From NCBI GenBank assembly GCA_025356505.1, contig JANXSV010000438.1, positions 1 to 10,985 of the forward strand: a stretch of DNA of 10,985 nucleotides, given 5' to 3'. Positions 1-10,985 of the stretch are shown here, in pieces. The notes beneath the pieces were generated by a model, which was given only the letters and a program-made list of their open reading frames with translations, ran no database searches and was not told the DNA's origin. Position numbers and translations under genes: made by a program. Source of the stretch: Methylovirgula sp. (GTDB taxonomy: Bacteria; Pseudomonadota; Alphaproteobacteria; Rhizobiales; Beijerinckiaceae). How positions within the stretch are numbered: position 1 is the stretch's first letter; the number at the start of each line of letters is the position of its first letter.

Positions 1-1
1 C

Positions 2-562
2 AGCGTCCACGCTGATGCCTCGGCTGGTGATGCGGCCATGCGCGATTCTGTGCGGTTTCACTTTGGTTTCACCGTGCCCTACATGCCGCATCCCGATGCG
101 GCCGGTGTCATTGAAAGTGTTGCCGCCGCCGCGAGTGACCTTGGAATGATTGGCGTCGAAAATAAAAGCGCCGGTTGGCCGTGGTGGGCCTTGCTTGCGC
201 GCGCAGAAGCCCCGAAAATCATCGCACGGCTTCCCTTTGTGGAAAGGCCGGGACACCCCGCCGGCATGCCGGTTTTTCTGCTCAGCAAGCCCCTAAACGA
301 AGCCGCAGCCCGCGATACGGTTCTTTACAGTGTCGCCATAGAGCGATGGTATGATGCTATTCATATGTCACTTGAGGCGATGAGCGGCGAGATGCTCGGC
401 AACGCGGCTACCCCATCGGGGCTGAGCCTGCTCATATGCCTCCCGGGCACGGTAGGCATCAACCGCCTAACCGCCGAGCTGGCAAAACTGCCGGTTGGCG
501 CAAGCGAAGTCACCGAGGTCGGCAGCCACGCGGCGCGTTATGCAATACAGCCTAATTCCTAA
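2..562 (+). CDS. Chorismate mutase-type protein, C-terminal part (5' end outside window)
   Basis: The frame is open to the left edge of the window, and 186 residues plus a TAA stop are present, so the start lies outside. The readable part contains the segments SDLGMIGVE, GWPWWALL, PKIIARLPFVER and HPAGMPVFLLSKPL. I recall these from the C-terminal half of the roughly 280-300 residue rhizobial proteins annotated as chorismate mutase, whose AroQ domain sits at the N-terminus. That domain is not in the window, so the catalytic assignment rests on this resemblance and on context. The next genes are a HisC-family aminotransferase and prephenate dehydrogenase, which would use the prephenate made here. 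A Met codon at position 38 is internal, because coding-like sequence (SVHADAS) continues upstream of it. A purely regulatory or PDT-like role for the C-terminal part cannot be excluded. Confidence 0.6.
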   Translation, partial: SVHADASAGDAAMRDSVRFHFGFTVPYMPHPDAAGVIESVAAAASDLGMIGVENKSAGWPWWALLARAEAPKIIARLPFVERPGHPAGMPVFLLSKPLNEAAARDTVLYSVAIERWYDAIHMSLEAMSGEMLGNAATPSGLSLLICLPGTVGINRLTAELAKLPVGASEVTEVGSHAARYAIQPNS

Positions 563-622
563 AGCCAAACCCCTCTTCCACAAAACCTTCTTCAACAAGC
601 CCTTTTTGCACGAGCACGATCT

Positions 623-1729
623 ATGACGAATTTGACATCAAACCGGCCAGTTCCCCGCAGCGGCATTATGGATATTCAGGCCTATGTGCCGGGAAAAAGT
701 GCTGCGAAATCCGGAACAAAGGTATTCAAGCTTTCGTCAAACGAGACCCCGCTTGGCGCGTCCCCCCATGCCATCACCGCCTATCAAAAAGCTGCGGAAC
801 ATCTGGAGCTCTATCCGGACGGCTCCGCCTTGGCGCTACGCACTGCAATTGGAACGCTTCACGGTATCGATCCCGCACAGATTGTCTGCGGCGGCGGATC
901 GGATGAAATTCTTACAATGATAACCAATGCTTATGTCGGCCCCGGCGATGAAGGCATTTTTACCGAGCATGGCTTTCTGGTTTATAAAATTGCCATTCTA
1001 GCGGCTGGCGGACACCCGGTTGTTGCCAAGGAAGTTGGCCTGACAGCGAGCGTTGACGCCATTTTGGCGAAGGTCAGTCCTCGCACCAAAATCGTATTTT
1101 TGGCTAATCCCAACAACCCGACTGGCACTTACATTCCAGTGGAAGAAGTAAGGCGGCTACACGCGGGCCTGCCATCGCACGTCATTTTGGTTTTAGATGC
1201 AGCTTATGCGGAATATGCCCGCAAGAATGATTATTCGAGCGGGATTGAACTCGTCGCGTCGGCGCAAAATGTTGTCATGACGCGAACTTTCTCAAAAATT
1301 TACGGGTTGGCAGCAGTTCGCCTTGGTTGGTGCTATGCGCCGCCGCATATCTGTGACGCGCTCAACCGAATTCGCGGACCTTTCAACGTTAATACTCCGG
1401 CCTCACGCGCGGGCGTTGCCGCATTGCAAGATCAGGCCCACATTGCCGAGGCCTTGAGCCACAATGATCACTGGCTGCCCTGGTTGACTGATCGGATTGC
1501 GGAGCTTGGCCTCAAAGTTACGCCGAGCGTGGCGAATTTTGTGCTTGTCCATTTTCCTCAAACCGGACCCCACACCGCCGCCAAGGCCGACAGCTACCTC
1601 TCGGAACATGGTTTGATAGTGCGCTCGGTGGCAGCTTACGGGCTGCCTGAGTGTCTACGCATCACGGTGGGCAGCGCAGAAGCCAACGAAAAAGTGGTTG
1701 CCGTGTTGACGCAATTTATGAAGGCCTGA
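623..1729 (+). CDS. hisC: Histidinol-phosphate / aromatic aminotransferase
   Basis: A 368-residue class I/II PLP-dependent aminotransferase (fold type I), full length for HisC. It moves an amino group from glutamate to imidazole-acetol phosphate in histidine synthesis, and members of this group often also aminate prephenate or 4-hydroxyphenylpyruvate. Visible motifs are SSNETPLG (38-45), the [10 protein letters not shown] loop (161-170), DAAYAEY (192-198) with the Asp that pairs with the PLP ring nitrogen, [15 protein letters not shown] (222-236) with Schiff-base Lys225, and LRITVG (345-350) with the substrate-carboxylate Arg346. It starts 60 bases after the chorismate mutase gene with only a weak ribosome site. 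The ATG at 623 is kept because the segment [19 protein letters not shown] is the usual N-terminus of alphaproteobacterial homologues. An internal ATG at 668 is the alternative. Its position directly before tyrC, as in the Zymomonas mobilis hisH-tyrC pair, suggests a dual role in histidine and tyrosine/phenylalanine synthesis. Confidence 0.92.
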
Positions 1730-1731
1730 TG

Positions 1732-2688
1732 ATGAGCGACAGTTTGGGTCCAAAGCTGCAGAGCCCGCTTTTTGATCAGATAACCATCATCGGCCTTGGA
1801 CTCATCGGGTCATCGCTGGCGCGTGCCGCCATGCAGCAGAACTTGGGCACAACTGTCATCGGTTTCGATCGTTCGCCGGAGGTGCGCGCCCGGTCGCGCG
1901 AACTCAAATTCGCAACTTCCATCGCTGAAGACTTGGCGCAGGCCGTGCGCGAGGCTGATTTGATCATTCTGTGTGCACCCGTGGGCGCCAACGCGGAAAT
2001 TGCCGAGCAAATGGCGCCTCACCTCAAAACGGGCGCGATCATCTCAGATGTTGGCTCGGTTAAGGCGTCCGTGGTGGCTGCCATATCGCCGCATCTGCCG
2101 CAGGGCGTTCACTTTATTCCCGCACACCCGGTTGCGGGCACGGAATATTCAGGGCCGGATGCCGGCTTTGCCACGCTGTTCAACAAGCGCTGGTGCATCG
2201 TCACCCCTTTGCCGGACTCCAGCGAAGCGGCCATCGCCAAAGTTGCTGAGTTCTGGCAGGCATGCGGGTCAAATGTTGAGCTGATGTCCCCGCACCACCA
2301 TGATCAGGTTTTGGCAATCACCAGCCATATCCCGCATCTGATCGCCTATAATATTGTCGGGACGGCAGCGCATATGGAGGCTGTGACCCAATCAGAGGTC
2401 ATCAAATTTTCTGCCGGTGGCTTTCGGGACTTTACACGCATAGCAGCGTCCGACCCGACCATGTGGCGGGACGTATTTTTGAATAATAAAGAGGCTGTTC
2501 TGGAAATGTTGGGACGCTTCACCGAAGATCTGACAGCGCTGCAACGCATGATCCGCTATGGTGATGGCGACGGCTTGTTCGATTTATTCACGCGAACGCG
2601 GGACATTCGCCGAAACATCATCGCCGAGGGCCAAGAAACTGCCGCGCCGGACTTTGGCCGCCGGTCTGAAAGTGAGCCGCAGAAATAA
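1732..2688 (+). CDS. tyrC: Prephenate / cyclohexadienyl dehydrogenase
   Basis: A TyrA/TyrC-family oxidoreductase of 318 residues. It oxidatively decarboxylates prephenate to 4-hydroxyphenylpyruvate, or arogenate to tyrosine, using NAD(P)+. The N-terminal Rossmann domain shows IIGLGLIGSS with the GxGxxG signature at 21-26, DVGS at 106-109 and HPVAGTEYSGP from 132. The helical C-terminal domain has the SPHHHDQVLAITSHIPH segment (187-202) with the conserved catalytic-region histidines, and GGFRDFTRIAASDPTMW near 229-245. No chorismate mutase or ACT domain is fused. The hisC stop and this gene's start form TGATGATG. ATG 1729 overlaps the stop, while ATG 1732 lies 7 bases after a GAAGG ribosome site at 1720-1724, so I chose 1732. 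Translation is very probably coupled to hisC. Sequence alone does not decide prephenate versus arogenate preference. Confidence 0.93.
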   Translation: MSDSLGPKLQSPLFDQITIIGLGLIGSSLARAAMQQNLGTTVIGFDRSPEVRARSRELKFATSIAEDLAQAVREADLIILCAPVGANAEIAEQMAPHLKTGAIISDVGSVKASVVAAISPHLPQGVHFIPAHPVAGTEYSGPDAGFATLFNKRWCIVTPLPDSSEAAIAKVAEFWQACGSNVELMSPHHHDQVLAITSHIPHLIAYNIVGTAAHMEAVTQSEVIKFSAGGFRDFTRIAASDPTMWRDVFLNNKEAVLEMLGRFTEDLTALQRMIRYGDGDGLFDLFTRTRDIRRNIIAEGQETAAPDFGRRSESEPQK

Positions 2689-2696
2689 GTTAGCGG

Positions 2697-3698
2697 CTAG
2701 TACAACGGCGCGAGCGCAAACGGCAAAGGAAAAGCACCCAACTTCGCCCGACCGTTTTCGATCACCAGTGTCACTTTATGGACCTCGCCGACTCCCGGAA
2801 CCTGTTCGACCTGCATCATCTGGACGAAGGCTGCGCTCATAAAGTTTGATTTGGGGGAAAGGCCGTGCTTCTCCAGCCACGGCACCAATCCGCTTATTTG
2901 CGCATCAAGCCGAGCAAAAGCGCGGTGCTGCGGGTCCAGCCCTGCGTTTGCCTGCGCGGTGACTTTAAGATCACCGCTGTGAAGCTCGATCGCGCTGAGC
3001 CGCAGCCTGCCCTCCGCCAGACGCCATTTTTCCGCGGCCGATGCGGCATCGGACAGCGGCGGCACGTCCAGATGATCGACCACGCCCTCAATTTTGATAT
3101 CCAGAGCCTCCGATCCAAAGAACGACGCAGCCAGCGCATCTGACCGAAACCTGTCCAGTTTAACGCTAAACGGCAGAATATTGTCTTGCGGCTTCAAGAC
3201 ACCCGGCGTTGCAGAGGCGTCAAAACGCTCAAATGTGAAATGCCCGAGCCCAGACGAGGACTTGACCGATAAATCACCATGGCGAACTGCAACATCTGTC
3301 CATGAGCGGTTGTTGAGGATGCCGCCGTAGCGCGTGACAGAACTGTCCCAACTGCTGATGATCTCGAACGGGCCCGCTTCAAAGCGTGAAGGACTGGCGA
3401 GACTGACGCTGACTGCATTTGGAGAGAGCACCGACCAGCTCGCAGTCAAATCGGCCAGTGTCGCTTTTGAATTTGCATCGCTGAATTGAAGTCCGCTGCA
3501 ACTGCGCGAAATTCCAAATGGGAAGCCACCTTTTTGCTGGGAGCTGCACGCCAATTGGTGCCCGGCTGCCCGTTCGCGATCCATCAACTTATCAAGGAAC
3601 GCCGTCACTTTTTGCTGCGCGCCATACCAGCCTAACGCAAGCCCGGCCAGAATCACCACAAAAGCCAGCACCGCCCAGATACGTTTTATGCTATCCAC
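2697..3698 (-). CDS. DUF2125 family membrane-anchored protein
   Basis: An uncharacterised alphaproteobacterial family (DUF2125). With the GTG start the protein has 333 residues: a short positively charged N-terminus, one hydrophobic segment at about residues 7-26 (IWAVLAFVVILAGLALGW), and a long periplasmic part rich in beta-type alternation. Two cysteines at about 51 and 67 flank the GGFPFGI segment, a hallmark I associate with this family, and may form a disulfide. Start choice: the frame extends to a TTG at 3782 (361 residues), but that codon has no ribosome site. GTG 3698 has a clear AGGAG 8 bases upstream and puts the membrane anchor at the very N-terminus, as expected. The gene is convergent with tyrC (8 bases between stops) and divergent from chaC, an arrangement I recall from other Hyphomicrobiales. 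Function is unknown; a cell-envelope role is only an inference from topology. Confidence 0.85.
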   Translation of the reverse strand: MDSIKRIWAVLAFVVILAGLALGWYGAQQKVTAFLDKLMDRERAAGHQLACSSQQKGGFPFGISRSCSGLQFSDANSKATLADLTASWSVLSPNAVSVSLASPSRFEAGPFEIISSWDSSVTRYGGILNNRSWTDVAVRHGDLSVKSSSGLGHFTFERFDASATPGVLKPQDNILPFSVKLDRFRSDALAASFFGSEALDIKIEGVVDHLDVPPLSDAASAAEKWRLAEGRLRLSAIELHSGDLKVTAQANAGLDPQHRAFARLDAQISGLVPWLEKHGLSPKSNFMSAAFVQMMQVEQVPGVGEVHKVTLVIENGRAKLGAFPLPFALAPLY

Positions 3699-3706
3699 GA
3701 CAGGCG

Positions 3707-3711
3707 CTCCT
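3707..3711 (-). promoter_or_regulatory. Ribosome binding site that decides the DUF2125 start
   Basis: AGGAG on the minus strand, 8 bases upstream of GTG 3698. The longer alternative (TTG at 3782) has no comparable site. The longer form would also place 33 mostly polar residues before the membrane anchor. Confidence 0.7.
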
Positions 3712-3830
3712 GAATTATATGTCCCCGGAACGCGGGCGGCAAATTCTCGTGTCTGTTCGCGCCACGTGGCCACCAATTTCAATACGCTCGGACACTGACA
3801 TCATATCTGCGACAATTTTTTAAAATCAAC

Positions 3831-3837
3831 AAAGGGG
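3831..3837 (+). promoter_or_regulatory. Strong Shine-Dalgarno sequence before a possible ATT start of chaC
   Basis: AAAGGGG ends 8 bases before an ATT codon at 3846 that is in frame with chaC. A TAA stop lies directly before that ATT, at 3843-3845. The annotated ATG at 3873 is 35 bases away from this site and has no good site of its own. If ATT is used, chaC gains nine residues (start-TQQPIKQD). Confidence 0.35.
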
Positions 3838-3872
3838 ATCTTTAAATTACACAACAACCTATCAAACAAGAC

Positions 3873-4415
3873 ATGGCGGTGGAAGCTCCGGCGCTCTGGG
3901 TTTTTGGCTATGGTTCGTTGATTTGGAACCCCGGCTTTCCCTTCATAGAGCGGCTGCCAGCGCGCGTGTTCGGCTATCACCGCACTCTCTGCGTCTATTC
4001 CCACGTTCATAGGGGCACAAGGGATGCACCAGGCCTCGTCCTTGGGCTTGACCGCGGCGGTTCCTGTAAGGGTGTGGCCTTTCAAGTCGAGGCACGCCAC
4101 CGCGAGGAAACGCTCAATTATCTGCGCGCACGCGAGCTGGTGACCAATGTTTACCACGAAGCCCATCTCGAAGTGCGCTTCGACTCTGGCCGACGAACTC
4201 ATGCCGTAACATATGTTGTCGACAAACTTCACGCCCAGTATGCGGGCCGCCTGTCCTTGCCGCGTCAGCTTGAATTGATCCGCCAGGGCAGAGGACAATC
4301 CGGCCTAAATCGAGACTATGTCCTCGCCACGGCAGATCACTTGCGGGATCTGAAGATAAAAGATCACGGGCTGGAATGGCTCGCGCAAGAGCTGCAAAAC
4401 ACCACTGCTGCTTAA
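3873..4415 (+). CDS. chaC: ChaC-type glutathione-specific gamma-glutamylcyclotransferase
   Basis: A 180-residue protein of the ChaC family, which cleaves glutathione to 5-oxoproline and Cys-Gly in the cytoplasm. The beta-barrel signature VFGYGSLIWNPGF is at residues 10-22, where YGSL binds the gamma-glutamyl group. HRTLCVYSHVHRGTRDAPGLVLGL follows at 36-59, and the catalytic glutamate is most likely Glu88 in RARELVTNVY. No signal peptide is present, and the length is normal for bacterial ChaC. ATG 3873 puts the conserved core ten residues from the N-terminus, as in many homologues, but its ribosome site is poor and an upstream ATT start is possible. The stop codon is shared: the palindrome TTAA at 4412-4415 ends both this gene and the opposing gene. 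The flanking genes do not suggest a pathway; a role in glutathione turnover is inferred from the family. Confidence 0.9.
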   Translation: MAVEAPALWVFGYGSLIWNPGFPFIERLPARVFGYHRTLCVYSHVHRGTRDAPGLVLGLDRGGSCKGVAFQVEARHREETLNYLRARELVTNVYHEAHLEVRFDSGRRTHAVTYVVDKLHAQYAGRLSLPRQLELIRQGRGQSGLNRDYVLATADHLRDLKIKDHGLEWLAQELQNTTAA

Positions 4416-4843
4416 TGAATGGCAACGCATAACAAATCGCGCAGCGCGACCTGACGCGCCTCGAGCGTTTCCGCAATCAAATGGATATGGAACTCGTCGG
4501 CACCCTGTGCGCCAAGGTGTGACGCCGCCGGACCGTTCCAAAAAAGTTCCGGCAATTCGCCGGTTTCACCCCCGCCAATGAGGGTCTTTTCACCACTCAG
4601 GCCGCAGCGCACAGCCAGAACCACAGCCCCGCTATAGGACCTCGCCACATCCATGCCCACTATATCTTCGCTCGAAAAAACCGAACAAATATAACGCGCG
4701 CCGCTGCGGCCCATCCAGGCGTGAAATTTGCCCGATAGACCATTGCCCGCCAGAGATCCCAAACGGACCCCGACACACGCAGGCATGTTTGCCTGCAGTT
4801 GGCTGAAACGAAAATGACCGTCGGCGGAGTGACCATATTCCAT
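4412..4843 (-). CDS. Uncharacterised 143-residue protein behind a putative LexA-type operator
   Basis: I do not recognise this family. The product has 143 residues, no signal peptide and no membrane segment, and looks like a small mixed alpha/beta cytoplasmic protein. Distinctive parts are LSGKFHAWMGRSGARYICSV (about 36-55), a segment SGAVVLAVRC (71-80) that may be a beta strand, and the C-terminal FHIHLIAETLEARQVALRDL (118-137), probably strand then helix. The ATG at 4843 has an AGAG ribosome site 7 bases upstream. Codon use and base composition resemble the neighbours, so I treat it as a real gene, not an antisense shadow. It has its own promoter (TTGACT, 17 bases, AATAAT) overlapped by repeated GTTC half-sites, so it is probably a single-gene unit under a repressor, perhaps SOS-controlled. 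Its stop overlaps that of chaC. Function unknown. Confidence 0.75.
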   Translation of the reverse strand: MEYGHSADGHFRFSQLQANMPACVGVRLGSLAGNGLSGKFHAWMGRSGARYICSVFSSEDIVGMDVARSYSGAVVLAVRCGLSGEKTLIGGGETGELPELFWNGPAASHLGAQGADEFHIHLIAETLEARQVALRDLLCVAIH

Positions 4844-4856
4844 ATTTGATCTCTTT

Positions 4857-4898
4857 TGTTCTAAATATATGAGAACATTATTCGAACATTTAAGAACA
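4857..4898. promoter_or_regulatory. Putative LexA-type operator array (phased GAACA/TGTTC half-sites)
   Basis: Four half-sites lie over the promoter: TGTTCT at 4857-4862, AGAACA at 4872-4877, CGAACA at 4883-4888 and AGAACA at 4893-4898. The last three are direct repeats starting 11 and 10 bases apart, so on the same face of the helix. The first is inverted and forms a palindrome with the second. GAAC 4873-4876 and GAAC 4884-4887 are 7 bases apart, which read on the minus strand is GTTC-N7-GTTC, the published alphaproteobacterial LexA consensus. The box covers the -10 element, a fitting place for repression. Binding by another repressor is possible. Confidence 0.6.
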
Positions 4899-4905
4899 AA
4901 GTCAA
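4877..4905 (-). promoter_or_regulatory. Sigma70-type promoter of the uncharacterised gene
   Basis: On the minus strand, TTGACT (4905-4900) and AATAAT (4882-4877) are separated by exactly 17 bases. Transcription would begin near 4870, giving a leader of about 27 bases before ATG 4843. This is the best promoter match in the window, and it lies in a distinctly AT-rich 93-base gap between plsC and the gene. Confidence 0.65.
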
Positions 4906-4936
4906 GAGCTGTTGAAATATTTTAGCGAATCTGTCG

Positions 4937-5695
4937 TTATTTTTCCCAACCAAGGACAGAAACTGCCAAGGCTGGATCGGCAGTGACGGCCTCGTCCACC
5001 AATTTATTGGTGGCTGTCTCAATTTTATCTTCAAGCAGCTTGAGGAATTCCTTTTTATCAAGGCCCGGCTCAATGGCAGGCAGGAACTCGATAACCAGTT
5101 TGCCCGGACGCCGCAGAAAAGATCGACGTGGCCAGAACAATCCAGCGTTCAACGCTACTGGCACGCAGCACACGTCGCTGGCTCCGTAGACTTGAGCCAC
5201 GCCGAATTTATAGTCCGGCGGAGCCCCTACAGCCTTGCGTGTTCCTTCAGGAAATATCATCAGCTTCCGCCCTTGGCTAAAGGCTTTGCGCGTGCCTTGT
5301 ACCACTTGGGTCATGGCCGATGCACCTGCCTTGCGGTTAATGGCGATTTGTTCCGAATAAACCATGTAGAGGCCGAAAATCGGCACATATTTCAGCTGGT
5401 CCTTCACTACAAAAGTGAAATCAGACATATGCGGTATGATCGCGAAGGTCTCTAAAATTGATTGATGTTTGGACGCCACGATGCATGCGCCGTCAGGCAC
5501 GTTTTCCAGTCCGCGATATTCAATTGACACGCCGCACACTTTTTTCAAAAGCCAGAGCGAAGTCCGTCCCCAGATCCGCCCGGATTCCAACCCGTTTCTG
5601 CGATTGCCAAATAGAAAAGGCAGTCCCGTGATCATGATAATAAATAAATTGATATAAAACAGGACGTTAAATACAAACGATCGCACATAGAGCAT
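4937..5695 (-). CDS. plsC: 1-acyl-sn-glycerol-3-phosphate acyltransferase
   Basis: A 252-residue PlsC/LPLAT-family enzyme. It acylates lysophosphatidic acid to phosphatidic acid at the inner membrane, in phospholipid synthesis. A hydrophobic N-terminal segment spans about residues 7-29. Motif I reads SKHQSILE with His77 and Glu82, so the usual HX4D is HX4E. Motif II is around AINRK (118-122), motif III is FPEGTR (148-153) and motif IV is VPVALN (178-183). GTG 5698 is the first possible start, but ATG 5695 is preferred because GAGG (5704-5701) is 5 bases upstream of it and only 2 from the GTG. The ribosome site overlaps the TGA stop of the upstream DUF218 gene, so translation is probably coupled. 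It is last in the ftsE-ftsX-DUF218-plsC series. Substrate preference (for example ornithine-lipid versus glycerolipid acylation) is not readable. Confidence 0.9.
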   Translation of the reverse strand: MLYVRSFVFNVLFYINLFIIMITGLPFLFGNRRNGLESGRIWGRTSLWLLKKVCGVSIEYRGLENVPDGACIVASKHQSILETFAIIPHMSDFTFVVKDQLKYVPIFGLYMVYSEQIAINRKAGASAMTQVVQGTRKAFSQGRKLMIFPEGTRKAVGAPPDYKFGVAQVYGASDVCCVPVALNAGLFWPRRSFLRRPGKLVIEFLPAIEPGLDKKEFLKLLEDKIETATNKLVDEAVTADPALAVSVLGWEK

Positions 5696-5702
5696 CACAA
5701 CC

Positions 5703-6374
5703 TCACGAAAACACCTGTGTCACGAAAACACCTGTCTCACGAAACGCAGCCTTACTCGCTCCGTTCGAAGATTTTGGCACAGCCGGGCTTACCAAAAACC
5801 GCGCTTGCGCCGCTAAGAACTTCACATATTCGGTAAAGTAAAGCCGCAAATCATCAACGCCAAGGCGCACTGCATCGCCGCGCGGCCCGTCGCGCACCAC
5901 AACATGGGGTATTATTTCGGTACCCGGCAGAGCATGCTGCATTTCCGCCAGCGCCCGGGGCATGTGATAGGACGACGTGACAATGACCAGAGATTGAAAA
6001 TTAAGCTGCCGCGCCCAAGCTCTTGCCTCCTCCGCATTGCCGATTGTGTTTTGCGCGGAATAGCCAAGGTCGATGCAGCACTGCGCGAACTCTCTGAATT
6101 TGGGAATGTCTCGCGAAAGGTCGCTGAGAGCAACATCGGGATTGACCCCGGAAATCAATAGGCGCTTGACGCGCCCGGAGGCCAACACATCCACGCCTTC
6201 GGCTATCCGGTCCTGACCGCCGGTGAGCACCACGGCTCCATCAATATCACTGCGAGAAAATTCGACCGTTTCAAATTTTTTGGCTGATCGCACAAACCCC
6301 ACGAAACCACCGCCGAAGACCACCGCTCCGGCCAGCAGAGCCAATAATACAAAGCGGCGTGCGTAAAAACCCAC
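5703..6374 (-). CDS. DUF218 (YdcF/ElyC/SanA-like) membrane protein
   Basis: A 223-residue protein with an N-terminal membrane anchor (about 8-28, after MGFYARR) and a DUF218 domain. Domain segments seen are DGAVVLTGG (45-53), RVKRLLISGVNP (68-79), NTIGNAEEARAW (108-119) and VIVTSSYHMPRA (130-141), in the order usual for the family. Relatives SanA and ElyC act in envelope integrity; their biochemistry is not settled. The GTG start at 6374 has GAGG (6386-6383) 8 bases upstream. The gene lies 43 bases after ftsX and just before plsC, an order I recall from other Hyphomicrobiales. Oddity: the last residues (ETGVFVTQVFS) are encoded by a 17-bp tandem duplication that shifted the reading frame and changed the stop. 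Confidence 0.85.
   Translation of the reverse strand: MGFYARRFVLLALLAGAVVFGGGFVGFVRSAKKFETVEFSRSDIDGAVVLTGGQDRIAEGVDVLASGRVKRLLISGVNPDVALSDLSRDIPKFREFAQCCIDLGYSAQNTIGNAEEARAWARQLNFQSLVIVTSSYHMPRALAEMQHALPGTEIIPHVVVRDGPRGDAVRLGVDDLRLYFTEYVKFLAAQARFLVSPAVPKSSNGASKAAFRETGVFVTQVFS
5704..5737. repeat. 17-bp tandem duplication at the 3' end of the DUF218 gene
   Basis: CACGAAAACACCTGTGT (5704-5720) is followed directly by CACGAAAACACCTGTCT (5721-5737), a single-base difference, and by a partial third copy CACGAAA (5738-5744). Because 17 is not a multiple of three, the second copy moves the frame of the DUF218 gene just before its stop. With one copy the gene would read on to a TGA that shares a base with ATG 5695 of plsC. 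Confidence 0.9.
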
Positions 6375-6417
6375 CTTTTAAGCCTCAATCATGGAAAAGC
6401 GTTTCAGCATGTGAATG

Positions 6418-7365
6418 TCATTCCAGCCCCCGCAAGTGACGGAATACAATCACGCGCGACATGACCCCGGTCACCAATGCCATCGCCAAACCTATCGTTA
6501 AAAGGATAAGATAGCCGCTGATGCCGAGCGAAAAAGTCCCGAACAGCGCTTCCACCTGCTCGCCTCCCGGGACAGAGGAAAATGCACCGGCCAACCATCC
6601 GGCAAACACGAAAGCCACCGCTGCTGCCACAGCCCCGATAAGGCCGCCGCGTAAGCCCAAGCGCAGAAAATGCCGTTGAAACTGCTGGGCAATAAACCCG
6701 TCCGCTGCCCCCACAAGATGCAGCACGCTGACAATCTCACGATTTCCGGCCATGGCACCGCGCGTCGCAAAAGCCACCGCCATAATCATTGCAATCACCA
6801 CGAGTACAAAAATCATCAGTGCAATGAACACAATCGAATTTGCCATGATCGCGAGCCTGTCCAGCCACAGGCTGTGATCATCGAGGCTTGAGCCTGGAAC
6901 ATCCCTCGCCAAAGCCTGCCGCAACATCGTCAAATCTGGCTTCGCGCTGTTGTTGGTCAATTTTATCACGATCAACCGGGGCACCGGCAGTTCGGACAGG
7001 TCAAGGCCGGATCCGAGCCAAGGCTCCAGCAGTTTCTGCGACTCGGCTTTGGAATAGACTTTAACATCGCCAATGCCCGGTTGGAGCCGCGTAATCTCCC
7101 CGGCCTTCTGGGCAGCGGCATCAACATCATTGCCTGCCACCTGGCGCACCTGAACCGTGATTTCCTGCGATACGGAAGCGCGCCATTCGCGCGAAGCCTG
7201 CGTCACTAAAAGAGCGCCCCCCGCAGTCAAGGCTGCCAGAAATGTCATTATGGCAATCACCGTAACCAGCGCGCGCCCTGCAATGGAGTCGGCTGGCACC
7301 AGCGACATTGCACCCGCAGGTGCCTGCACAACAATCTCCTCATGCGGAACACTCGCATCTGTCAT
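6418..7365 (-). CDS. ftsX: Cell division protein FtsX
   Basis: The membrane subunit of the FtsEX complex, an ABC transporter-like machine that couples ATP hydrolysis at the divisome to activation of peptidoglycan hydrolases. The 315 residues show the FtsX layout: a cytoplasmic N-terminus of about 30 residues, TM1 at about 33-54, a periplasmic domain at about 56-170 (includes ITVQVRQVAGND and KVYSKAESQKLLEPW), then TM2 about 175-200, TM3 about 235-262 and TM4 about 281-305, ending in VIVFRHLRGLE. The loop between TM2 and TM3 carries REIVSVLHLVGA (209-220), the conserved FtsX segment that meets FtsE. ATG 7365 has AAGGAAG 11 bases upstream, a long spacing. It lies 39 bases after ftsE, in the same reading frame. 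Confidence 0.93.
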   Translation of the reverse strand: MTDASVPHEEIVVQAPAGAMSLVPADSIAGRALVTVIAIMTFLAALTAGGALLVTQASREWRASVSQEITVQVRQVAGNDVDAAAQKAGEITRLQPGIGDVKVYSKAESQKLLEPWLGSGLDLSELPVPRLIVIKLTNNSAKPDLTMLRQALARDVPGSSLDDHSLWLDRLAIMANSIVFIALMIFVLVVIAMIMAVAFATRGAMAGNREIVSVLHLVGAADGFIAQQFQRHFLRLGLRGGLIGAVAAAVAFVFAGWLAGAFSSVPGGEQVEALFGTFSLGISGYLILLTIGLAMALVTGVMSRVIVFRHLRGLE

Positions 7366-7404
7366 CGCGCCTGTCGCTTCCTTGATGAAATGGTCAAAAA
7401 ATCC

Positions 7405-8073
7405 TCAATCATAGATATGCATACGCCCATCACCCAGAACCAGCCTGCGGGCATCATCAAACATATCCATCAACGCCAGATCATGGGTGGCAATGACAAC
7501 CGCGGTGCCGGACTTTTGCAGTTCCACAAACAGGCGCATCAGCCGCCGCCCTAGGGAGGGATCGACATTACCTGTCGGCTCATCCGCCAGGAGCAGTTCC
7601 GGACTGGCAATTACCGCACGGGCAATTGCCGCGCGCTGTTTTTCGCCCCCCGAAAGTACGGGCGGCAGAACGTGCATCCGCTCGCCAAGCCCGACCCAGC
7701 GCAAGAGCTCAACAACTTCCGATCTATAGCTAAATTCGTTCTTACCGAGCACACGCAGCGGCAGCGCGACATTTTCGTAAGTCGTCAGATGTTCCAGTAA
7801 CCTGAAATCTTGAAACACCACCCCAATCCGGCGGCGCATCGCAGTAATTTCGTCTTTCGTCAAGGTGGCGGCGTTGCGGCCAAAAACTGTGATAAGCCCT
7901 CGGGTCGGCTGCAAAGCCTGAAGCATCAAGCGCATGAGCGTAGTTTTCCCAGCGCCGGAGGGCCCGGTGAGAAACTGGAAACTCTGCGGCGCAATGTTGA
8001 AGCTTAAGTCGCGCAGAATCTCCGGCCCGAACCCGTAGCGCAACCCAACATTCTCAAATCGCACCACATCCAT
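7405..8073 (-). CDS. ftsE: Cell division ATP-binding protein FtsE
   Basis: The cytoplasmic ATPase of FtsEX, 222 residues, normal for the family. ABC motifs are in order: Walker A GPSGAGKTT (37-45), Q-loop in VVFQDFRLLEHLT (Gln88), signature LSGGEKQR (140-147), Walker B LLLADEP (160-166), D-loop region TGNVDP and H-loop THDL (His197). The N-terminus VVRFENVGLRYG is typical of FtsE. Start is ambiguous: TTG 8076, ATG 8073 and two GTG codons (8067, 8064) are all near, with no strong ribosome site; ATG 8073 is chosen. ftsE is first in the minus-strand series ftsE-ftsX-DUF218-plsC, and a CtrA-type site lies 38 bases upstream, so its expression may follow the cell cycle. Confidence 0.95.
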   Translation of the reverse strand: MDVVRFENVGLRYGFGPEILRDLSFNIAPQSFQFLTGPSGAGKTTLMRLMLQALQPTRGLITVFGRNAATLTKDEITAMRRRIGVVFQDFRLLEHLTTYENVALPLRVLGKNEFSYRSEVVELLRWVGLGERMHVLPPVLSGGEKQRAAIARAVIASPELLLADEPTGNVDPSLGRRLMRLFVELQKSGTAVVIATHDLALMDMFDDARRLVLGDGRMHIYD

Positions 8074-8110
8074 CAATCCGGCCAGATTTTAAACAGCATC
8101 ATGATTAAGG

Positions 8111-8125
8111 TTAACCCGTCCTTAA
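8111..8125. promoter_or_regulatory. Putative CtrA binding site between ftsE and the divergent gene
   Basis: TTAA (8111-8114), seven bases, TTAA (8122-8125) is an exact match to the CtrA consensus TTAA-N7-TTAA, followed by CCAT as in many alphaproteobacterial CtrA half-sites. A further TTAA lies at 8105-8108. The site is in the 121-base gap between two divergent genes and could act on either. I could not fix a -10 element with confidence for either direction. Confidence 0.6.
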
Positions 8126-8194
8126 CCATCCTAACAGCCCTATAGAGACAAGTTTCGCGCGATAAAAGCCGCAACACCCAACTTTATGTGATGC

Positions 8195-8860
8195 ATGATG
8201 TCCCACTCTTTTCACCAGCTCAAATCCGAAGACACTGCCGCAAGCCATGAAGCCGGCATTTCTCCAAAAATTCGGCATGCGCTTATAGGTGTTGCGGCCA
8301 ACGATGATCGTCCACGCAGTGACATCACCGTAGAGGCCATTTCGCGCCATGTCATGCGGCCAGGGCGACAAAGATTTGTTTTGCAACCCTTCAAACCTCA
8401 GCCAACAGCGAAAATTCGCCAGCCCGGAAGCCCGTTTTGGCCCGCAGCCATATGCCTTGTTACAGCGATTGCTCTCATCGCCGCCATTGGCGAACGCAGA
8501 CCGTTGGTGCGCAACGTTCCGCAAACTGCTGCCGTGTTCAAGGCCATTTCAATGCCGGTAAATCTGCGCGGGCTGGACATCAAAGATGTAAAAGCCCGCC
8601 TCTTTGAAGAAAATGGCCAGCAGGTTCTGGCGGTGGAGGGCATTATCAAAAATGCGCTCAAAACCGGCAATCATGTTTCACCGTTGCTGATCTCGCTGCG
8701 CGGCGAAGACGGACGCGAGATCTACAGCTGGTCTGCCCAGCCGGGCGTCTCGCGGCTCGATGGTGGAGCCAGTCTAATGTTTCGCACGCGCCTGGCCAGT
8801 CCGCCATCCAGCGCCAAAACTGCACTTGTTAATTTCGCCGAAGCAGACAACGATAAGTGA
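8195..8860 (+). CDS. Membrane-anchored protein of the MJ0042/zinc-ribbon type, ribbon absent
   Basis: A 221-residue protein with one membrane segment at about 80-99 (PFWPAAICLVTAIALIAAIG). Its C-terminal domain, with VPQTAAVFKAISMPVNLRGLDI, VLAVEGIIKN, YSWSAQPGVSRL and FRTRLASPP, resembles the DUF3426-like domain of alphaproteobacterial proteins found next to ftsE. Those relatives begin with a two-CxxC zinc ribbon. Here the 80-residue N-terminus has no cysteine, and no frame upstream encodes CxxC pairs. ATG 8195 (or the adjacent ATG 8198) is the first start after a stop, and no ribosome site is visible. A shorter start at Met54 (8354) is possible. Divergent from ftsE and 22 bases before hpt, so likely cotranscribed with hpt. 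Function unknown; type II membrane topology with the C-terminal domain outside is inferred. Confidence 0.7.
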   Translation: MMSHSFHQLKSEDTAASHEAGISPKIRHALIGVAANDDRPRSDITVEAISRHVMRPGRQRFVLQPFKPQPTAKIRQPGSPFWPAAICLVTAIALIAAIGERRPLVRNVPQTAAVFKAISMPVNLRGLDIKDVKARLFEENGQQVLAVEGIIKNALKTGNHVSPLLISLRGEDGREIYSWSAQPGVSRLDGGASLMFRTRLASPPSSAKTALVNFAEADNDK

Positions 8861-8882
8861 GTTGAAGCAGGACTGGATTAAC

Positions 8883-9422
8883 ATGACCCGTAAAAGACAT
8901 GTGCGTGTGCTTATCGATGCGCAGACTATCGAAAAGCGCGTAACCGAGCTGGCGCAAGAAATTATAAAGTCAAATCCGGAAGATCTGCTTGTTGTTGCGG
9001 TGTTGAAAGGCTCATTCATGTTTGCGGCGGACCTGTTGCGGGCCCTGCACACTGCCGGAATGGAGCCGCAGGCCGAATTTATTCACATCTCATCCTATAA
9101 GGAAGGCATGGTGTCTTCGGGCAAAGTGAGTGTGCTCAAGGATATTGATTCGCCCGTAAAAGGCCGGGATGTACTCCTCGTCGATGATATCCTCGAGTCC
9201 GGGCGCACCTTGGCCTACGCCAAAGATCTGTTTGCGGCGCGCGGCGCAAAATCCGTCAAGCTCTGCGTGCTTTTGGAAAAGCCCGGCCACCGGGCTGTGC
9301 AAATCAACGCCGACTTTACCGGATTTCAGTGCCCGGATCTGTTTGTCGTCGGATATGGAATGGATGTGGCACATTCCTATCGCCAATTGCCTTTCGTCGG
9401 CGTGGTCGAAACTGAAGCCTGA
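8883..9422 (+). CDS. hpt: Hypoxanthine phosphoribosyltransferase
   Basis: A 179-residue type I phosphoribosyltransferase of purine salvage that makes IMP (and possibly GMP) from hypoxanthine/guanine and PRPP. Motifs are VLKGSFMFAADLLR (40-53), the flexible-loop segment SSYKEGMVSSGKV (70-82), the PRPP-binding loop LLVDDILESGRTL (98-110) with the two acidic residues Asp101 and Asp102, LLEKPGHR (130-137) with the purine-contacting Lys133, and VGYGMD (156-161) near the C-terminus. The frame opens farther upstream at a TTG (8826), but that would overlap the preceding gene by 35 bases. ATG 8883 has AGGA 10 bases before it and gives the usual length. No signal peptide; cytoplasmic. Confidence 0.94.
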   Translation: MTRKRHVRVLIDAQTIEKRVTELAQEIIKSNPEDLLVVAVLKGSFMFAADLLRALHTAGMEPQAEFIHISSYKEGMVSSGKVSVLKDIDSPVKGRDVLLVDDILESGRTLAYAKDLFAARGAKSVKLCVLLEKPGHRAVQINADFTGFQCPDLFVVGYGMDVAHSYRQLPFVGVVETEA

Positions 9423-9466
9423 CACGGCGAAATTGACCTGATCGCCCCGGCGGGTGATAAAGCATC

Positions 9467-10264
9467 ATGGCATTTGATATCGTCGATCTGCGTTCGTTTT
9501 ACGCGTCAAATCTGGGTCAGAGTGCCAGTGCGATCCTGTGCTCTGCCATTCGCGCGCGCTGGACATCGTGCGTCGGCCAATCGGTCCTTGGTATCGGCTA
9601 TGCGTCGCCCTTCCTCAACATGCTCAAATCCGAAGGTCTGAGAACATTGTCGTTCATGCCGTCCAATATGGGCGTCGTGAATTGGCCCAGCACCGGACTT
9701 TCGGCTTCGGCTTTGATTGATACCGATGCCTTGCCGCTGCCAGACTCTTCTATCGACCGCATTTTATTGGTTCACGCGCTCGAAAATTGCGAGCACAAGC
9801 GCGACCTGCTCGACGAAATCTGGCGGGTCTTAACCCCCGGCGGCCGCCTCATCGTGATCACGCCGTCGCGCCACGGCTGGTGGGCGCATTATGAGCACAC
9901 GCCGTTTGGACAAGGCCAACCCTTTTCAAAAGGCCAACTCCGAGACCTAATGCGCGATGCTTTGTTTTCGCCCTTGTACTGGAGCGAGGCGCTGTATCTA
10001 CCGCCCAGCACCCGTCAGATTTGGCTCAGAAGCGCAAAAACGATCGAGGCGATTGGCCATCGCTTATCTTTGCCCATGGCCGGAGTGCACCTCGTCGAGG
10101 CGACAAAACAACTCTACCGGCCCATCCTTGCGCGCAAGCAATCGCGTTTTCGCCTGCCCAAGTTGGCCCCGGCGCTCATCAGTCAGCGAGAATCATCAAG
10201 CTCGCATTCCCCCCGGCCGCAGCAACATTTATTGAAACAATCTGCTCTTGAGAAAATCTCTTGA
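9467..10264 (+). CDS. SAM-dependent methyltransferase (class I, type 11-like)
   Basis: A 265-residue class I methyltransferase with unknown substrate. The N-terminus MAFDIVDLRSFYASNLGQ is typical of an alphaproteobacterial family often found beside glyoxalase II genes; none is in the window. SVLGIGYASPFL (39-50) is motif I, where SAM binds, with a less usual Gly-rich loop. ALPLPDSSIDRILLVHALEN (88-107) and DEIWRVLTPGGRLIVITPSR (116-135) are the later Rossmann motifs. It starts 44 bases after hpt and is probably cotranscribed with it. The last 28 residues (from about 238, rich in Ser, Gln and Pro) are encoded opposite the 3' end of putA, an 86-base antisense overlap. The tail looks unstructured and may be a late extension beyond the ancestral stop. 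Confidence 0.82.
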   Translation: MAFDIVDLRSFYASNLGQSASAILCSAIRARWTSCVGQSVLGIGYASPFLNMLKSEGLRTLSFMPSNMGVVNWPSTGLSASALIDTDALPLPDSSIDRILLVHALENCEHKRDLLDEIWRVLTPGGRLIVITPSRHGWWAHYEHTPFGQGQPFSKGQLRDLMRDALFSPLYWSEALYLPPSTRQIWLRSAKTIEAIGHRLSLPMAGVHLVEATKQLYRPILARKQSRFRLPKLAPALISQRESSSSHSPRPQQHLLKQSALEKIS

Positions 10265-10985
10265 GATAATTCGGCCCGCCAGCCTTTGGGCCTGTGCCGG
10301 ATAGTCCTGAACCCCCGAAGGGCTGTGTTCCCACAACGGCACCAATAATATTGCGGTTCACATAGATATTGCCCGCACTCAATCTCTCGCACACGCGCGC
10401 CACAGCTGAATCGATGCGCGAGTGGATGCCGAGCGTCAGCCCATAGCCCATCGCCTCAATGGCATCGCAAACCGCATCAAGTTGCCCCGCTTTGTAGCGA
10501 ACCACATGAAGAACCGGCCCGAAAACTTCCGCTTTCAAATCGCTTACAGCGTTCAACTCAAAAATATGCGGGGCGATGAACGTACCGCTTGCAGGTAAAA
10601 CACCGCCAACTTTAATTTCACGCACTCCGGCTTGCATTTCGCGCACGTGAATTTGCAGCCGCTCCAGAGCCACCGCATCGATGACAGGCCCGATTTGGGT
10701 GGAAACGTCGCGCGGATCGCCCATTTTAAGCTCGCTTGCAGCTCCCGCGATCATGTTCAACATTTTGTCCGCGACGTCATCTTGCAGACACAACAGGCGT
10801 AACGCCGAGCAACGCTGACCGGCTGACCGGAAAGCCGACATCACAACATCGTCGGCAACCTGTTCCGGCAGCGCCGTGGCATCGACGATCATCGCATTGA
10901 TGCCACCTGTCTCGGCAATCAGCGGTACGATCGCCGCATCTTTGGCAGCCAGCGCGCGGTTGATGCGCCATGCCGTCGCCGTTGA
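10179..10985 (-). CDS. putA: Bifunctional proline dehydrogenase / P5C dehydrogenase, C-terminal part (5' end outside window)
   Basis: The open frame runs off the right edge; 268 residues and the stop are seen, roughly a quarter of a typical PutA. This is the L-glutamate gamma-semialdehyde (P5C) dehydrogenase domain, which oxidises P5C to glutamate with NAD+. ETGGINAMIVDATALPEQV holds the catalytic-domain Glu (residue 25 of the fragment), and SAFRSAGQRCSALRLLCLQ holds the nucleophile Cys59. EVFGPVLHVVRYK, GNIYVNRNIIGAVVGTQPFGG and GGNASLMILAD follow. The protein ends at the GGNASL motif with no long extra C-terminal domain, as in short (type A) PutA. The proline dehydrogenase domain is outside the window. 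A stand-alone P5C dehydrogenase is less likely, because the C-terminal segment matches PutA. The 3' end overlaps the methyltransferase gene. Confidence 0.9.
   Translation of the reverse strand, partial: STATAWRINRALAAKDAAIVPLIAETGGINAMIVDATALPEQVADDVVMSAFRSAGQRCSALRLLCLQDDVADKMLNMIAGAASELKMGDPRDVSTQIGPVIDAVALERLQIHVREMQAGVREIKVGGVLPASGTFIAPHIFELNAVSDLKAEVFGPVLHVVRYKAGQLDAVCDAIEAMGYGLTLGIHSRIDSAVARVCERLSAGNIYVNRNIIGAVVGTQPFGGSGLSGTGPKAGGPNYLKRFSQEQIVSINVAAAGGNASLMILAD

Follow-up and report, generated by a model that had tools for sequence, protein, structure and literature searches.

Known and predicted GIY-YIG proteins under SOS control

In Escherichia coli, the gene cho is described as LexA-repressed (PMC3820734) and its product Cho as carrying a GIY-YIG domain (PMC1564403). 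In Bacteroidetes, SOS control was predicted for a GIY-YIG-containing exonuclease (COG0847), as reported in PMC8565304. Here, we describe gene X, a small gene in a 10,985-nucleotide (nt) stretch of DNA from Methylovirgula sp. (contig JANXSV010000438.1, positions 1 to 10,985; the window hereafter means this whole stretch), for which LexA control and GIY-YIG ancestry are likewise predicted. We consider it likely that gene X is a LexA-repressed single-gene SOS effector, which derives from a GIY-YIG nuclease and is no longer a canonical nuclease itself.

4412 to 4843, minus strand: gene X, encoding a 143-residue protein of an unnamed family, a divergent homologue of the GIY-YIG fold (open reading frame (ORF) call, homologue searches, models and fold comparison)

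By analogy, Cho is the closest functional parallel, but gene X is not a Cho member. The gene X protein, with its 143 residues, ends at the GIY-YIG-like core and leaves no room for the C-terminal domains described for Cho in the cited part of PMC1564403. Moreover, it has no Pfam domain and lacks the canonical catalytic residues, and the LexA boxes of the two genes differ. The Bacteroidetes exonuclease is described as homologous to the DNA polymerase III proofreading subunit, and it belongs to another phylum with other LexA motifs (PMC8565304). The N-terminal GIY-YIG domain of UvrC shows no significant sequence similarity to the gene X protein, which carries an extra N-terminal hairpin and has the catalytic Tyr and Glu replaced. 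The N-terminal domain of a plant glutaredoxin (2lwf), which we take to be a GIY-YIG domain, shares 7-8% identity with the gene X protein and belongs to a plant protein, for which we know of no SOS link. A further relative is WP_231146028.1 of Bradyrhizobium barranii pCC829_3, annotated as 'GIY-YIG nuclease family protein' (locus L277), which scored 86.0 bits with our homologue alignment A1 and has the W-x-G-x-SG and E-x-H-x-H motifs in common with the gene X family. It differs in that Tyr, Tyr, and Glu are kept at the canonical columns and Arg, His, and Asn by spacing (by eye), in that the hairpin Arg is missing, and in that the gene lies on a plasmid between transposase genes, in a 6.3-kb locus that lacks an exact GTTC-N7-GTTC. 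No title among the literature matches listed described the gene X family, which is no proof of absence, most subscription journals being outside the coverage.

The LexA-type box at gene X and in the window genome

The initial annotation had placed upstream of gene X a promoter TTGACT-N17-AATAAT, overlapped by an exact GTTC-N7-GTTC (4887-4873) that covers the -10 element, and this was confirmed by pattern and promoter scans. The elements found are as follows.

4900 to 4905, minus strand: -35 element TTGACT (promoter scan)
4877 to 4882, minus strand: -10 element AATAAT, within the LexA-type box (promoter scan)
4873 to 4887, minus strand: exact LexA-type box GTTC-N7-GTTC, GTTCGAATAATGTTC (pattern match, conserved at homologues, rank 6 of 60 in the genome)
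4894 to 4897, minus strand: extra half-site GTTC, at 6-nt spacing upstream of the box (sequence reading)
4858 to 4861, minus strand: inverted half-site GAAC, 11 nt downstream of the box (sequence reading)
4535 to 4549, plus strand: second exact GTTC-N7-GTTC, within gene X (rank 20 of 60 by the homologue matrix)

GTTC-N7-GTTC is given in Table 1 of PMC9578287 as the SOS box of Caulobacter, present in related bacteria too. The TTGACT-17 nt-AATAAT site was the sole promoter-like site in 4380-5000 (10 of 12 matches; a mean of 0.4 in 50 shuffles). The second exact box is probably a chance match, since it lies inside the ORF and ranks only 20 of 60 by the homologue matrix described below.

Exact boxes were also present at other genes of the SOS type in this genome, among the 20 of 60 exact sites whose surroundings were read beyond the window's own two. 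The lexA gene (contig C306) has an exact box upstream, with its far edge 48 nt ahead of the start. Furthermore, exact boxes precede the ssb, RmuC-family, ImuA-like, SocA/Panacea, and PA0069-type radical SAM genes, with the far edge 19-119 nt from the start; the ImuA-like assignment (NCBIfam, 4.5e-15) lies under the family cut-off. It thus appears from these positions that the LexA of the window organism would use GTTC-N7-GTTC. No RecA match over the family cut-off was found in the window genome, whose completeness is given as 97%, and the missing recA is probably an assembly gap.

A base-frequency matrix was built from the 60 distinct boxes upstream of gene X homologues in 88 other loci, with the own locus excluded, and the spacers of the 60 genome sites were scored with it. 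Ranks 1 to 6 went to the boxes of ssb, the rmuC-like gene, the imuA-like gene, the SocA-like gene, lexA, and gene X, with scores of 6.3-3.6 for ranks 1-4, 0.62 for lexA, and 0.54 for gene X. The site at rank 7 (0.30) is internal to an ORF, that at rank 8 belongs to a locus that is hard to read, and the radical SAM gene follows at rank 9. A matrix trained on gene X relatives of other genomes therefore picks out SOS-type promoters in the window genome. The initial suggestion that gene X would belong to the LexA/SOS regulon is thus supported by the boxes at its homologues and by the same boxes at lexA and other SOS-type genes, and we are highly confident that gene X would be under LexA control.

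Two of the genes listed above are worth recording in their own right. The SocA/Panacea antitoxin-like gene (L036, contig C273) stands behind an exact box of rank 4 of 60, with 19 nt between the far edge of the box and the gene start, and is a possible SOS-controlled toxin-antitoxin component. For the PA0069-family radical SAM gene (L037, contig C282), which also has an exact box upstream, this distance is 59 nt.

Conservation of the box upstream of gene X homologues

Homologues were found by the gene X protein search in 31 of 60 related genomes, the own genome counted, and by the search with A1 in 177 of the 297 genomes sampled from the order, representing 73 of 118 genera. In a class-level sample, 11 of 289 genomes gave homologue matches; three of these belong to the family of the window organism, and the lowest-scoring ones were not clear relatives; no exact box was present within 400 bp upstream in the eight placed matches of the nine class-sample loci (L175-L183). 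The plasmid and phage searches gave no match for four of six queries, while the other two matched.

We examined 120 loci, comprising 30 from the protein search, 30 from the A1 search, and 60 picked from the A1 matches mostly for genus diversity, which yielded 114 unique homologues. The upstream zone was the 400 bp before the codon of the conserved Trp, or before the start of the profile alignment in the 12 rows without a match to the Trp pattern; in L116 the pattern fell on a different Trp, and its box was counted. Absence of the box upstream of orthologues had been named in the initial annotation as one outcome that would refute its reading, and this outcome did not occur: an exact box was present upstream in 89 of the 114 unique homologues. 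As controls within these loci, 504 further windows of 400 bp contained an exact box in 10 cases, and the 300 bp upstream of other ORFs did so in 7 of 319 cases. The homologue rows are related by descent, so that Fisher values overstate their independence. The homologue proteins are 22-74% identical to the first alignment row, the box sequences are diverse (60 distinct among 88 loci), and the boxed rows span 26 family labels.

Probable GIY-YIG ancestry of the gene X protein

The initial annotation had described the product as a protein without known function. This holds in so far as the gene X protein matched no Pfam family, staying below the gathering cut-off of Pfam GIY-YIG, and no NCBIfam family (0 at E <= 1), but a distant origin can now be named, namely the GIY-YIG nuclease fold. 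Among 30 homologues that are members of A1, Pfam gave single chance-level matches only, and none to GIY-YIG. A profile search of solved structures returned one chance-level match, and the search of viral structures returned nothing at E <= 0.001. The profile-profile comparison with GIY-YIG alignments was not significant either; its register alone agreed with the bridging sequences found later.

Two AlphaFold2 models resembled GIY-YIG domains, and the core fold of these domains was recognised in the predicted structures. Compared with this core, the family carries an extra N-terminal beta-hairpin (W-x-G-x-S-G-x-R-Y). Moreover, the A1 profile matched four bridging sequences with GIY-YIG motifs, L277 (86.0 bits), L175 (54.5), L127 (53.5), and L177 (35.1), and L177 matched alignment A2 with an E value of 6.2e-9. 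From models and bridges together, gene X is very likely of GIY-YIG ancestry. In the L277 locus (2995-3363), the GIY-YIG gene is annotated as starting at 3049, which may be too late, since an in-frame ATG and the N-terminal W-x-G-x-SG motif of the gene X family precede this position.

In the bridge-based alignment, the window protein shows V, G, and L where the canonical Tyr, Tyr, and Glu would stand. It also has no Asn after Asp136 of the last helix, so the C-terminal Asn is absent, while it is present in L177, L277, and L127; this Asn is described as variable across the GIY-YIG superfamily (PMC1564403). Of the 114 homologues, 36 have the first Tyr, a single one has the second, and 34 have the Glu; in no case do all three occur together. 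The first Tyr and the Glu were commoner in the rows without an exact box (19 and 17 of 25) than in the boxed ones (17 and 17 of 89). L127 keeps the first Tyr and the Glu, with Phe in place of the second Tyr. These columns argue quite strongly that the window protein would be without canonical GIY-YIG catalysis.

Another set of residues is kept: the W, the G, the S-G, the R-Y of the hairpin, E-x-H-x-H, one Arg, and one Asp each occur in 90 to 113 of the 114 homologues. Since the W, both G, the E, and the first His are present in all four bridges, that part of the conserved set is older. The hairpin Arg is found in 103 of 114 homologues and in none of the four bridges, and may for that reason be an addition by the gene X family itself. 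The near-invariant Asp was considered as a replacement of the catalytic Glu, an idea that was dropped because the Glu column lies two residues before it in the bridging alignment.

Alternative explanations

Several points weigh against LexA control of gene X. The box is not universal, 25 of the 114 homologues having no exact one, and no Hyphomicrobium or Filomicrobium record of a named-record set has it. A lone exact box at gene X, taken by itself, is weak evidence: the genome (2.57 Mb, 453 contigs) holds 60 exact sites, fewer than the 102 of the reversed pattern, so that the site count alone is uninformative, and in the window two exact sites were found against 0.26 expected, with at least two in 6 of 200 shuffles. 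The matrix score of the gene X box is also modest. The box could then be a chance match, or the site of a regulator other than LexA. This explanation is nevertheless very improbable and was set aside, as exact boxes stand at 89 of 114 homologues in so many distinct sequences and the same matrix retrieves the ssb, rmuC-like, imuA-like, and lexA promoters, the genome's own regulon.

As for the protein, it might be an active SOS-induced nuclease that resembles Cho in its role, in excision or in the processing of forks. Its rebuilt site would combine the E-x-H-x-H of the third core strand with an Arg and an Asp of the last helix and the Arg-Tyr of the hairpin. At nine polar or aromatic positions the residue is conserved in 90 to 112 of the 114 homologues, with the Asp in 112, which is an enzyme-like pattern, and the hairpin Arg, absent from the four bridges with canonical residues, could belong to a new site; the LexA-repressed cho of E. 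coli, with its GIY-YIG domain, gives a precedent in the sources cited above. However, Tyr, Tyr, and Glu are missing from the window protein and occur together in no homologue, and the W, G, G, E, and first His shared with the bridges may be structural, so we regard an active nuclease as unlikely. A SulA/SidA counterpart, that is, an SOS-induced division inhibitor or checkpoint protein on a borrowed GIY-YIG fold, is more doubtful still. The protein is short, fast-evolving, and usually encoded alone, as would suit such an inhibitor, but it matched no SulA model in NCBIfam at E <= 1, and its nuclease ancestry points towards nucleic acid. Of these readings, we rank a pseudo-nuclease or repair accessory first, an enzyme with a rebuilt site second, and a division inhibitor last.

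Box-less homologues in the Hyphomicrobium-type clade

The homologues without an exact box are not scattered. On the unrooted tree of 114 rows, 22 of the 25 fall in one clade of 36 rows, which also has 14 boxed rows, and the box label changes 6 times compared with about 23 in shuffles. One of the 25, L004, has a box of the right type with a single mismatch. The box may have been lost in this clade, the tree being unrooted. In the named-record set, which was drawn towards the box-poor clade, the box was present in 23 of 80 records (the same count from the profile start), including all 10 from Methyloceanibacter and 2 of the 3 from Methyloligella; among the 57 box-less records, L253 has just 91 nt upstream.

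An exact match within 300 bp upstream of lexA was found in 12 of 13 lexA loci overall, and in all seven genomes of the family concerned (f2); in two of the seven it lay only at 284-290 nt, and the spacers were GC-richer than the matrix. Since lexA there keeps the box while the gene X homologue has none, it seems from these upstream regions that gene X, rather than the regulon, left SOS control in the Hyphomicrobium-type clade. Hyphomicrobium sulfonivorans (G146) has two homologues, L126 without and L127 with the box. In genome G043, listed as 100% complete, no LexA DNA-binding domain was found, and the gene X homologue is without an exact box.

Genomic neighbourhood of gene X

The neighbours of gene X in the window are as follows.

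4937 to 5698, minus strand: plsC-like acyltransferase, upstream of gene X on the same strand (Pfam Acyltransferase, 7.8e-16)
3873 to 4415, plus strand: chaC-like gamma-glutamylcyclotransferase, convergent, downstream of gene X (Pfam ChaC, 8.6e-44)

The end of the plsC-like ORF (4937) and the start of gene X (4843) are separated by 93 nt. The chaC-like neighbour is convergent, so that, among the ORFs seen, gene X alone lies just downstream of the LexA-type box. Among the 89 boxed loci, with the own locus counted, a plsC-like homologue was found upstream in 31 and a chaC-like homologue downstream in 28; these counts, made with rough ORF picks in GC-rich loci, are probably low. A same-strand ORF within 50 nt downstream was present in 5 of the 89, and no operon partner was found among the neighbours in the boxed loci, on the same rough picks. 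Gene X homologues would thus usually be single genes. In 11 loci (e.g. L027, L086, L091, L099), the ORF upstream of the gene X homologue fell in one cluster, whose first member resembles a class II ribonucleotide reductase (by eye).

Proposed role of gene X

The box, its conservation, the regulon of the genome, the profile homology, and the absence of the canonical residues are read directly from sequence, and on them we base the following model. In the undamaged cell, LexA would sit on GTTC-N7-GTTC over the -10 element and block RNA polymerase at gene X. Upon DNA damage, LexA would be cleaved and the gene X protein made. This protein, a predicted GIY-YIG endonuclease homologue with an extra hairpin, would have lost the Tyr/Tyr/Glu site while retaining the set of W, S, R, Y, E-x-H-x-H, R, and D, and, as a pseudo-nuclease that binds DNA or a repair accessory, it would act on or mark DNA that is damaged or branched. 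LexA binding and induction by damage are what we infer from the boxes. DNA is the putative ligand because of GIY-YIG ancestry and SOS-type regulation together, and action on DNA is reasonably probable.

Across the order Hyphomicrobiales, we think it slightly better than an even chance that gene X represents a previously unnamed SOS effector that arose from a GIY-YIG nuclease, in which the box and the residue set persisted while the classical site decayed and a hairpin Arg, missing from the canonical relatives, came close to invariance. Such an effector would be a damage-induced pseudo-nuclease or a nuclease of new chemistry, and would have escaped SOS control in the relatives of Hyphomicrobium. 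The SOS regulons beyond model bacteria include genes of unknown function, and gene X is a widely conserved case, for which induction by damage, binding by LexA, and descent from a nuclease are sharply predicted. The Hyphomicrobium clade, in which the gene X homologue is without a box and lexA has one, offers a natural comparison. If the proposal is true, a repair-nuclease fold would have become a non-canonical SOS protein, and this in an order to which root-nodule symbionts and methylotrophs belong.
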